From contig JAKAEZ010000008.1 in NCBI GenBank assembly GCA_021819825.1, positions 1 to 64,000 on the forward strand: a stretch of DNA of 64,000 nt. The letters are read 5' to 3'. Positions 57,027-60,732 of this stretch are shown here, piece by piece. The translations under genes were made by a program, and so were the position numbers. This DNA comes from Planctomycetota bacterium (GTDB taxonomy: Bacteria; Planctomycetota; Phycisphaerae; WQYP01). The notes beneath the pieces were generated by a model, which ran no database searches, was not told where the DNA came from, and saw only the letters and a list, made by a program, of their open reading frames with translations. How positions within the stretch are numbered: the stretch's first letter is position 1; every line of letters begins with the position of its first letter.

Positions 57027-58268
57027 TTACCATTCCTTGTGAATCCAAGAGTGCGGATAATAGGTTTGCAAAATCGATCTCGCCCGCCAGCCGCGCTGGG
57101 CCAGCGTCTGTGCCCCCCACTGCGATAATCCGATGCCATGGCCAAAACCATGCCCATCCACGAGTTGAATATTATTGCCATCGCGTTGAATCACAAAAAA
57201 ACTGCTCGGTGGTGCCGGCACGGTCCGCATCGGATCCAGCGCCAGAGCCAGCCGGAATTCCTCCGCTCGCATTTTTCCGACATGTCCCGCAACATCCCTA
57301 AGCGTAATAATCATGGGCCGGCGGGTAATTGGATTTCGCTGGGTAATGCGCACTGACACAATAGGCCCGAGTTCCGCGAGATACGGCAGATCATTTTTCT
57401 GGCCCCACCAGGTCACGGCCTGCGTAATTTGTCGCAGGCTGAACGTCATGGTCGGCCAGGTAAATTCCGGGCAGTTCGCATCCAGCGTGCCAAACAGCCG
57501 GTTGACCAGAGGCGGTACGGAAGCATCGCCCCAGGCGTCGGCAGCGCTTTGTGAAGCTCCCCCATTACAAGCTGAATAAAAGGCGCAGAACAAGCCGATT
57601 TCCTGGTTGTCCCGTGTTTCCATAATATCGCCGGTGGTAGCCCGCACGGCATTCCAAGCACGCGGCGTTTCAGCATTTTTCCCGCCGTACACCTGAGAAT
57701 TTTGACCGCCCGTAACATCCCAGGCGTGGGTGCGGCCAAAGGTCTCTATCTGATAAAGCGCATACGTTCGCGCGGCGATGGCCTGCGCCCGATACGTGGC
57801 GGGCAGCCAACTGCGATACAATTCGCGCGAAAGCACGCCCGCCAGATAACTTTCAATAGGCAAACTATTGATGGCGGCGTATTTCCCATCCGACAGATGC
57901 ATAATTTGAACGGTCCCGCGATACAGATGAGCATTAATGTAGGGCGGCGTGACGGATTCCTGCGTAATGCGCACACGAATCCATGGCTCTTGCATCCACG
58001 ACGCTAAATGAATAATGCCCGGATATAATGGCCCGAGAATTTTCGGTTTTGGCAAAATAGTCGGCACAGCGGGAAATGCCGGCGGCATCACGGGAGATAT
58101 CGCAATGGGTGCCGGGGGCGGAGTCAACGAACTGACACTGGGCGGCGGCGGGACTGCGTTATAGGACATTGTCGTTGGCGCGGTCTGGCAACCGCATAAC
58201 ATCAGGCCCGTCAACATGACTGCGATTGAAAGAACAAAACGTGGTAAGCGACGTGCGATACGGATCAT
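57027..58268 (-). CDS. SpoIID/LytB-domain lipoprotein
   Basis: The 413-residue protein starts with a lipoprotein signal (VLSIAVMLTGLMLCGC) and a Pro-rich linker to about residue 75. The SpoIID domain follows: LPIESYLAGVLSRE, YRAQAIAARTYALYQ, and the end GHGFGHGIGLSQWGAQTLAQRG. In spore formers SpoIID is a lytic transglycosylase that acts on peptidoglycan stripped of peptides. LytB-type relatives modify amidase activity. Non-sporulating planctomycetes carry them too, presumably for cell-wall turnover. The surface anchoring and domain are clear; the cellular role is inferred. Confidence 0.88.
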   Translation of the reverse strand: MIRIARRLPRFVLSIAVMLTGLMLCGCQTAPTTMSYNAVPPPPSVSSLTPPPAPIAISPVMPPAFPAVPTILPKPKILGPLYPGIIHLASWMQEPWIRVRITQESVTPPYINAHLYRGTVQIMHLSDGKYAAINSLPIESYLAGVLSRELYRSWLPATYRAQAIAARTYALYQIETFGRTHAWDVTGGQNSQVYGGKNAETPRAWNAVRATTGDIMETRDNQEIGLFCAFYSACNGGASQSAADAWGDASVPPLVNRLFGTLDANCPEFTWPTMTFSLRQITQAVTWWGQKNDLPYLAELGPIVSVRITQRNPITRRPMIITLRDVAGHVGKMRAEEFRLALALDPMRTVPAPPSSFFVIQRDGNNIQLVDGHGFGHGIGLSQWGAQTLAQRGWRARSILQTYYPHSWIHKEW

Positions 58269-58381: not shown

Positions 58382-59311
58382 TTACTCAACGCGGCGTAGA
58401 GCCAGCCCGAACTCCGTGAGCTTCTGCTTAACTTCTTCCAAGCTGGTCTGACCGAAGTTTTTCACACCCATGAGTTCCGCTTCAGTGCGGCTGGCCAGAT
58501 CCCCCAGTGTGTTGATGCCCAAACGTTGCAAAGCCTTGCTGGCGCGAACAGAAAGATCCATTTCCGTTACCAGTTTATTCAATACTGCCTCAGGAACCTT
58601 GGCAGCCACCTGCTTAATAAGTTCCTGTCGCTGCTGCTGCCGGGCTTCATCCACGGCCTGCCCCAGTCGCAGACCTTTCTTGGAAAGCATTTCCCGGATT
58701 TCATCCAGGCTGGTTTCTCCAAAATTTTTGTAGCTGATAAGTTCCGCCTCACTGGTACGCACCAGATCGCCCAGCGTACGGATATTCATTTTCTTCAGGC
58801 AGTTGCGGGCACGCACGGAAAGCTCGAAATCAGTGGTGGGCAATTCCAGAAGCATATTGCGCGGCAGAATGCGTTTATCAGAATCATCCTGCACTTCCAT
58901 ATACATTGAGCTGTCCACGTGTTCATAATACATGCGTCCATGCGGGTTATTGGGCTTTACGGACAGAAGGCGGTGCAGGCACTCTTCCGCTTCGTCATAA
59001 TAACCGGCATCTTCATACAACACGGAAAGATTCAGCAGCACGCCTTCACGGGTTGGTTGATGCTGTGCCAACGATTCATAAATGGACAGCGACAATTCAT
59101 CATCCCCGAGCAGATCAGCATAATAGGCCAGCTTGAATGCGACCTCGTCATTTTCCGGATCAGCCTGATGGGCTTCTTCCAGCTTCTCAGCCGCTTGCAC
59201 GATATTGCCGGCGTGCGCCATCTTCATAGCCTGCTCAAAAAGAGACTTGGCCTTGCCCGCGTCGCGCGGCATGGGTGTAGTTACGATTGGGGCTGCGGTT
59301 GTGGTCGTCAT
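58382..59311 (-). CDS. TPR protein with two RNA polymerase alpha-CTD-like domains
   Basis: Residues 18-135 are TPR repeats (KAKSLFEQAMKMAHAGNIVQAAEKLEEAH and following). Residues 160-218 closely match the bacterial RNA polymerase alpha C-terminal domain: TDFELSVRARNCLKKMNIRTLG, YKNFGETSLDEIREML. The Arg and Asn equivalent to E. coli Arg265 and Asn268, which bind UP-element DNA, are kept. A second copy at about 247-305 (MDLSVRASKALQRLGINTLGDL, VKNFGQTSLEEVKQKL) keeps the Arg but not the Asn. There is no signal peptide, so it should be cytoplasmic. It probably contacts DNA or sigma/activator proteins; the real role is unknown. Confidence 0.88.
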   Translation of the reverse strand: MTTTTAAPIVTTPMPRDAGKAKSLFEQAMKMAHAGNIVQAAEKLEEAHQADPENDEVAFKLAYYADLLGDDELSLSIYESLAQHQPTREGVLLNLSVLYEDAGYYDEAEECLHRLLSVKPNNPHGRMYYEHVDSSMYMEVQDDSDKRILPRNMLLELPTTDFELSVRARNCLKKMNIRTLGDLVRTSEAELISYKNFGETSLDEIREMLSKKGLRLGQAVDEARQQQRQELIKQVAAKVPEAVLNKLVTEMDLSVRASKALQRLGINTLGDLASRTEAELMGVKNFGQTSLEEVKQKLTEFGLALRRVE

Positions 59312-59569: not shown

Positions 59570-59992
59570 CTACGTCTGACACGCGGCCCCGAATTTCAAT
59601 TGCCATCGCTGGGACACATCGGCGCAGTCGCTTTTTGTGCGGGTAAGAGTCAAGGGGCCGTTAAGTTCATGCCCTCGCAAAATCCCGCGGATGGCATTTT
59701 CCTCAACGCGTTGAAGGTTCAATATGCCGCCGTCGACGTGCGTAACGTGGCCGCGGTCACCGGGGATTTGGCCCTGAAAGTCCAGATAGATCAGGCGGTG
59801 ATCAGGGATCGCAATGGCGGGAATTGCTTGAAATTGGCGGCTCCAGGCAGCCGGGTCAAGGCGAATTTGCCATGTTGCCAGCAGCGGCCGATCAGGTAAT
59901 TGCAGCAGTAAATCCCAGTGGATGTCAGTTTGACGGACATGCTTTAAAACCGCAAATCTGAAAACTTTTTCGTTGAAGTCTTGCCAAACCAT
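59570..59992 (-). CDS. Stand-alone LigD 3'-phosphoesterase-like domain
   Basis: The 140-residue protein matches the phosphoesterase module of the DNA-repair ligase LigD. It has RFAVLKHVRQTDIHWDLLLQ with likely metal/phosphate ligands His18, His25 and Asp27, then IPDHRLIYLDFQGQIP with His65, and GHVTHVDGG. In LigD this module removes 3' phosphates and ribonucleotides at breaks. The Arg that follows the HxD motif in LigD (HYDFRLE) is Leu here. No ligase or polymerase domain is attached, and no Ku gene is in the window. A nucleic-acid end-processing role is inference. Confidence 0.75.
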   Translation of the reverse strand: MVWQDFNEKVFRFAVLKHVRQTDIHWDLLLQLPDRPLLATWQIRLDPAAWSRQFQAIPAIAIPDHRLIYLDFQGQIPGDRGHVTHVDGGILNLQRVEENAIRGILRGHELNGPLTLTRTKSDCADVSQRWQLKFGAACQT

Positions 59993-60042: not shown

Positions 60043-60732
60043 ATGGAAATTCGGCGTTCAAAACAGTGGTCACGGATGGGCCTGCTTGTGCTTGCCACAA
60101 GTGCGATGTTACTGGCGGGATGTGAAAGTTCCGCCATGAAATTACGCAATCAGGGTTTATCTCTTTATCATCGGGGCGAATATCAATCGGCCCTGGTGAA
60201 ATTCAATGACGCTTTGAAATACAACCCCGCTGATCCCCGCGCCAATTACTATGCCGGCGCATCGGATTACATGCTGGCCCGTTATCAGGAGGCGGCGTTC
60301 CACTATAAAACCGCCTGGACGGTTGATCCCAATTTCGGTCATGTGAAAAGTGCCCTGGCTGAAGCGCTCATCCGCGCCGGGCGACCCAATGAGGCGATGA
60401 ATTTTCTGGAACGTGATGCGGAACTTACCGGCCGCGTCACTGGACGCTTGCGTGTGGCGCGGTTTTATAAACGTATTGGCGATCTTGATGACGCGCGCGT
60501 TAATTTCGCGAAAGCTGCGGCAATGGCCCCATCGAATCCCGAAGTCCTTATGCAGGTTGCCGGGTTCGATGACAGCGTTGGCCGCAAGCAGGATGCCCGG
60601 GCGCTATACATCCGCATTTATCAACTGGATCCGACCATGCCGGGCCTGGTGGAAAAAATGCAGCATGACGGCGTAACGATTTCCGAGGCGTTGGCCGCCC
60701 CACTGCCGGCGACCCAACCGGCCACCCGGTAA
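60043..60732 (+). CDS. TPR lipoprotein
   Basis: The 229-residue protein has a lipoprotein signal peptide ending LLAGC (MGLLVLATSAMLLAGC). It is followed by about four TPR units (LRNQGLSLYHRGEYQSALVKFNDAL, ANYYAGASDYMLARYQEAAFHYK and so on). Such lipoproteins usually scaffold protein complexes in the periplasm or outer membrane. The tail is Pro/Ala/Thr-rich. It lies 24 bp before the next gene and probably starts an operon of four. The partner is unknown. Confidence 0.85.
   Translation: MEIRRSKQWSRMGLLVLATSAMLLAGCESSAMKLRNQGLSLYHRGEYQSALVKFNDALKYNPADPRANYYAGASDYMLARYQEAAFHYKTAWTVDPNFGHVKSALAEALIRAGRPNEAMNFLERDAELTGRVTGRLRVARFYKRIGDLDDARVNFAKAAAMAPSNPEVLMQVAGFDDSVGRKQDARALYIRIYQLDPTMPGLVEKMQHDGVTISEALAAPLPATQPATR

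Follow-up and report, generated by a model that had tools for sequence, protein, structure and literature searches.

A single-copy core gene of Planctomycetota encodes two RNA polymerase alpha-CTD domains on a TPR scaffold

The locus and its neighbours

The window analysed here is a 64,000-nucleotide stretch of contig JAKAEZ010000008.1 from an incomplete planctomycete assembly (2.5 Mb, 68% complete). On its minus strand, an open reading frame of 309 amino acids fills positions 58382 to 59311 exactly, stop codon included, and encodes a TPR domain followed by two RNA polymerase alpha-CTD domains, referred to below as CTD1 and CTD2. The closest public relatives share 93-98% protein identity and are labelled Planctomycetota or Phycisphaerales. 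The N-terminal sequence of the 309-amino-acid protein shows no evident signal peptide. Many relatives have longer open frames that reach more than 130 residues further upstream, and in two of the three long-frame relatives checked with Pfam, the listed TPR matches extend into the extra upstream part. Within the genus, dN/dS is 0.02-0.11 for the whole gene and 0-0.03 for CTD1; these low ratios, together with conservation across the phylum, rule out a chance open reading frame or a shadow frame. The normal rpoA gene of the genome lies on a different contig and encodes a full alpha subunit including its own CTD. Thus, the TPR/CTD gene specifies an additional protein and is not a damaged rpoA; a role as a stand-in for a lost RpoA CTD is likewise rejected, as RpoA retains that domain.

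The next downstream gene on the same strand, with which the TPR/CTD gene forms a putative operon, encodes a SpoIID-family protein of 413 amino acids with a lipoprotein-like N-terminus (57027 to 58268, minus strand; PF08486, E 2e-19). In Phycisphaerae, spoIID is the next same-strand downstream gene in 56 of the 76 loci with enough sequence, at a median spacing of 55 bases, and ruvA adjoins the TPR/CTD gene in none of the 76. Among 39 loci sampled elsewhere in the phylum, ruvA comes next in 17 and spoIID in one. At five loci (L163, L180, L181, L188, and L194), the TPR/CTD gene is followed by ruvA, ruvB, another gene, and spoIID, sometimes with tgt or yajC; RuvA, RuvB, Tgt, and YajC were named from their recognisable sequences, without a profile search. 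These arrangements probably derive from one old ruvA-ruvB-spoIID-tgt-yajC cluster headed by the TPR/CTD gene, of which Phycisphaerae kept the spoIID end. As the links to spoIID and ruvA would then reflect inherited gene order, they are weak guides to function. A functional tie to SpoIID was therefore set aside, the adjacency in Phycisphaerae being probably a remnant of the older order.

On the other side of the gene, just upstream and on the same strand, lies a frame for a stand-alone LigD_N protein (DNA ligase D 3'-phosphoesterase) of 140 amino acids (59570-59992, minus strand; PF13298, E 3e-9). About 700 bases from the TPR/CTD gene, a divergent frame (60043-60732, plus strand) encodes another TPR protein, its N-terminus being lipoprotein-like.

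Domain identity and predicted structure

The initial annotation described a TPR scaffold carrying two alpha-CTD-like domains, and profile searches bear this out. Pfam RNA_pol_A_CTD (PF03118) matches two stretches of the protein (E 6e-43, 144.9 bits against a cut-off of 23.8), and TPR_19, TPR_2, and TPR_14 exceed their Pfam cut-offs in the N-terminal half. When the genome was searched with PF03118, each CTD singly scored 76-77 bits, close to the 80.4 bits of the genome's true RpoA CTD. Membership in another helix-hairpin-helix family had also been considered in the initial annotation; however, the Pfam family HHH_5 stays under its threshold (24.9 bits against a cut-off of 27) and is much weaker than PF03118, so that the two domains are genuinely related to the RpoA CTD. 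The alpha N-terminal domain, responsible for dimerisation and assembly with beta and beta-prime, is absent, and residues 18-136 are occupied by TPRs instead. The best RpoA equivalog score for the protein is 144.3 against a cut-off of 302.

An AlphaFold model built with 76 homologues has a mean pLDDT of 93 and a pTM of 0.53; individual domains are thus predicted with confidence, but, with a pTM of only 0.53, their mutual arrangement is not. In the model, a TPR superhelix of three repeats is followed by a capping helix, a low-confidence segment (residues 141-147), CTD1, a helix (residues 218-236), and CTD2. The TPR domain, delimited by Pfam TPR matches, the model, and groove entropy, spans residues 18-136 (58904 to 59260, minus strand) and comprises the helix pairs 18-33/37-50, 55-67/71-82, and 89-101/105-118 and the capping helix 123-136. 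The linker (residues 137-155; 58847 to 58903, minus strand), defined by the model and by conservation, includes the low-confidence segment with a conserved acidic motif (M-x-x-D-E-[DE] in the family) and then a helix at residues 144-155. CTD1 (residues 156-218; 58658 to 58846, minus strand) and CTD2 (residues 241-306; 58394 to 58591, minus strand) were both placed by Pfam, genome search, and alignment, and CTD1 also by Foldseek; between them lie the inter-CTD helix and spacer, of variable sequence (residues 219-240; 58592 to 58657, minus strand).

A structure-guided comparison with RpoA had been proposed at the outset. In Foldseek searches, the CTD part of the predicted model folds as solved alpha-CTDs do (0.6-0.9 Å): it superposes on 9zum_D, the Caulobacter alpha-CTD solved on AT-rich DNA, with 0.6 Å over 64 columns (48% identity) and on 9a4w_A, the RPOA chain of an integrative RPOA-RPOC model, with 0.9 Å over 69 columns (52% identity). 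The TPR part matches designed and natural TPRs.

In a 55-row tree, CTD1, CTD2, and the RpoA CTD each form one group (support 96/96, 95/86, and 90/90, respectively); with 67 columns only, finer branching lies beyond the resolution of this tree. The separation into three clades indicates that the duplications are older than the spread of the phylum. A partial or duplicated rpoA that lacks its N-terminus is accordingly rejected, given these three old clades and the missing alpha N-terminal domain.

A phage or plasmid origin was also considered and rejected, since matches in such elements are only CTD-sized and those with annotation are RNA polymerase alpha genes. In the plasmid collection, 21 Streptomyces plasmid records match alpha-CTDs (H6-H20), and most of those listed are annotated as RNA polymerase subunit alpha. 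Other planctomycete frames besides rpoA also carry alpha-CTD domains (G176:C4:337088, G219:C1:4088706, G176:C4:1479137, and G106:C1:825964); their carriers are short frames of 137-155 amino acids or very long open frames of 1423-1472 amino acids.

Conservation across Planctomycetota

To score distribution, a full-length match was defined as one with an E value far below the level reached by the RpoA CTD (about 1e-15). By this measure, the gene is found in 187 of 199 genomes sampled evenly across Planctomycetota and in 111 of the 113 that are at least 90% complete (a raw tally of 113/113 also counts RpoA-only matches). In a nearer sample, 54 of 61 genomes carry the gene, with one full-length copy per carrier, and 20 well-assembled genomes contain as a rule three PF03118 domains, i.e., those of RpoA, CTD1, and CTD2. 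The TPR/CTD gene is thus a single-copy core gene of Planctomycetota, and the statement in the initial annotation that planctomycetes have similar proteins was right. The best 80 matching contigs are all labelled as planctomycete except two (L056 and L072), which are labelled otherwise or unassigned. One of these, L056 (WYBR01000125.1), is labelled Vicinamibacteraceae bacterium isolate PLA1 and holds a planctomycete-type copy at 49% identity; the record is probably mislabelled.

Residues of the CTDs are numbered below as in E. coli RpoA, and the 265, 261, and 287 surfaces of the alpha-CTD are those that contact DNA, sigma, and activators, respectively. Among 120 homologues, R265, N294, and G296 are present in 100% of both CTDs, and S299 and E302 in 96-100%. 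The position of N268 is Asn in 92% of CTD1 sequences and Lys or Arg in 95% of CTD2 sequences; that of C269 is Cys in 95% of CTD1 and Ala in 81% of CTD2. K298 of E. coli is replaced by Thr, as it also is in the sampled planctomycete RpoA. K297 is replaced by Glu in CTD1 (94%) and by Gln or Ala in CTD2, which leaves less positive charge near DNA. CTD1 therefore retains the full 265 determinant except K298, and CTD2 has Lys or Arg at 268 and Ala at 269. In the protein described here, the corresponding residues of CTD1 are R167 (R265), N170 (N268), C171 (C269), N196 (N294), G198 (G296), S201 (S299), and E204 (E302), with D161 (D259) and E163 (E261) in the sigma patch; those of CTD2 are R256 (R265), K259 at the N268 position, N285, G287, S290, and E293. 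The Arg and Asn claimed earlier for the first copy, and the Arg claimed for the second, are thus in place.

The CTD of RpoA from the same 28 matched genomes served as a yardstick. Mean identity between genomes is 69% for CTD1, 60% for the RpoA CTD, and 50% for CTD2, and CTD1 shares 44% identity with the RpoA CTD of the same genome. Mean entropy for CTD1, RpoA, and CTD2 is 0.15, 0.23, and 0.59 bits at the DNA surface, 0.67, 1.97, and 1.93 bits at the sigma surface, and 0.94, 1.59, and 1.09 bits at the activator surface. Constraint on CTD1 is therefore stricter than that on the polymerase's own tail. In particular, the sigma-patch equivalents D259 and E261 are kept more strictly in CTD1 than in RpoA; the activator (287) patch is not specially retained, as it lacks R317 and mostly has Ala in place of V287. 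CTD1 also has fixed residues that are absent from RpoA (R267, K272, M273, Y292, and E297). In one family (f59; loci L180, L181, and L188, genomes G161, G177, and G220), CTD2 has lost the NFG DNA-contact loop and CTD1 is intact; in G144, a genome of the same family, two PF03118 domains were detected, not three. CTD1 thus looks like the indispensable domain.

The TPR half was expected to offer a binding surface, and such a surface is found in TPR2 and TPR3, where the groove (scored at TPR positions 2, 5, 9, 12, and 13) is about as conserved as the repeat core: groove against structural positions average 1.29 against 1.26 bits in TPR2 and 0.91 against 0.74 bits in TPR3. The outer helix-B surface of these two repeats is far more variable (2.3 bits). 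The conserved groove residues are F59, Y63, D66, N94, E100, and D101, of which F59, D66, E100, and D101 are nearly invariant; TPR1 has no groove-conservation pattern of this kind. This pattern suggests that the groove receives a conserved, probably peptide-like ligand.

Candidate function and relation to known systems

The alpha-CTD is a main contact surface among bacterial RNA polymerase, promoter DNA, and regulators. Judged from its residues, CTD1 probably binds DNA, most likely in the minor groove of AT-rich sequences, as the RNA polymerase alpha tail does. Alpha-CTDs in general contact the minor groove of UP elements, at -60 to -40; the -35 element, to which sigma region 4 binds, lies downstream of these (PMC2613000). 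The conservation of D259 and E261 suggests that CTD1 might also lie against sigma region 4 through the equivalent patch. This contact is less sure than DNA binding because E261 may be structural: together with the SVR motif, it adjoins R265, and the conservation of both could be structural. CTD2, held on a short helical arm, could provide a second DNA contact that is weaker or, given Lys or Arg in place of N268, differently specific.

It is about evenly balanced whether the protein acts as a cytoplasmic DNA-binding transcription accessory factor, which would supply alpha-CTDs in trans and bind a partner in its TPR groove; this is the reading we prefer. The conserved groove residues would grip the partner, and the alpha-CTDs would bring that partner, or the polymerase itself, to DNA upstream of promoters. 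A positive (recruiting) effect is presumed over a negative one. The stricter constraint on CTD1 than on the polymerase tail suggests an unrecognised core transcription factor. Against the accessory-factor reading stand the lower charge near DNA (K297), an activator patch that is not specially conserved, and neighbours (spoIID, ruvAB, tgt, and yajC) that are not transcription genes.

These neighbours lend some weight to an alternative that we nevertheless hold to be unlikely, namely that the protein is a nucleoid or DNA-recombination factor with no role in transcription, in which the CTDs would be minor-groove clamps and the TPRs would bring in a repair or chromosome protein, for example of the RuvAB pathway. 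Both CTDs keep the DNA-contact set, and where ruvA directly follows on the same strand (17 of the 39 loci across the phylum), ruvB often comes after it. However, the cluster also contains spoIID, tgt, and yajC, ruvA adjacency is lacking in all 76 Phycisphaerae loci, and the arrangement may be old order only; moreover, the sigma-patch positions of CTD1 are unexpectedly conserved.

The same sigma and DNA positions, with the likeness of CTD1 to the RpoA CTD of its own genome, would also suit a decoy, in which free CTDs would bind to UP-element DNA, sigma region 4, or activators, with the result that less polymerase is recruited to selected promoters. The initial annotation raised a related idea, a mimic of the DNA- and activator-binding part of the polymerase that could compete with transcription factors or act as a bridge to them. 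The DNA half of this idea is supported by the contact set, which is kept; the activator patch is altered (V287A, R317 lost). Universal presence in a single copy, together with strong purifying selection, would argue for a positive core factor more than for a decoy; competition is thus quite improbable, and a constitutive accessory factor fits better. It is more improbable still that the CTD folds do not bind DNA and now serve protein-protein or RNA contacts instead, e.g., in tRNA modification or secretion, for although tgt and yajC are cluster neighbours in some lineages, CTD1 has its own fixed residues, and one family lost the NFG loop of CTD2, a loss of DNA binding should have relaxed the contact residues of CTD1, and R265, N268, N294, G296, S299, and E302 are nearly invariant there, as a set more so than in RpoA.

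A stronger form of the accessory-factor reading, which we regard as unlikely, is that Planctomycetota have one more essential general transcription factor, in which a TPR adaptor carries two detachable alpha-CTDs and which would serve many promoters in trans, together with RNA polymerase and sigma. If so, part of the promoter-upstream recognition in this phylum would fall to a separate core protein and not to the polymerase. A whole phylum retains a second, separate carrier of the alpha-CTD, the first copy of which evolves more slowly than the polymerase's own, and if this carrier is active in transcription, models of promoter recognition drawn from E. coli and B. subtilis are incomplete for Planctomycetota, as they leave out a core component. 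The role is directly testable in culturable planctomycetes such as Planctopirus limnophila, for which genetics and a published essential-gene screen are available (PMC10632474).

A search confined to the open-access literature found no account of the protein's function; its nearest known counterparts each share a part of it. With the RpoA alpha-CTD it has family and fold in common, and CTD1 retains the contact residues; unlike RpoA, it carries tandem CTDs on TPRs, lacks the alpha N-terminal domain, is encoded apart from rpoA, and differs at N268 (Lys or Arg in CTD2) and K297 (Glu in CTD1). The BREX kinase PglW and the RpoC-type PRK14906 (both NCBIfam) are large proteins with an alpha-CTD-like segment, but the TPR/CTD protein has neither a kinase nor an RpoC part and scores 34.6 against a cut-off of 990 and 28.8 against 1437, respectively; no kinase with BREX genes is found at the locus, where the neighbours are spoIID, the TPR lipoprotein, methyltransferases, and a gyrase-B-like gene. 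The transcription regulator AfsR likewise couples TPRs with a DNA-binding region that cooperates with RNA polymerase (PMC10936776); however, activation by AfsR depends on a SARP domain, a nucleotide-binding oligomerization domain is also present, and the abstract of that paper describes no alpha-CTD in AfsR itself. The stand-alone alpha-CTD proteins of PRK07758 (NCBIfam, ~95 amino acids) also hold this domain outside the alpha subunit, but as one short domain with no TPR, and the TPR/CTD protein scores 47.5 there, under the cut-off of 115. Taken singly, the domains are thus typical of known families; their combination matches neither RpoA nor PglW nor PRK07758, and what we regard as new is an alpha-CTD carried outside the polymerase and fixed across a phylum.
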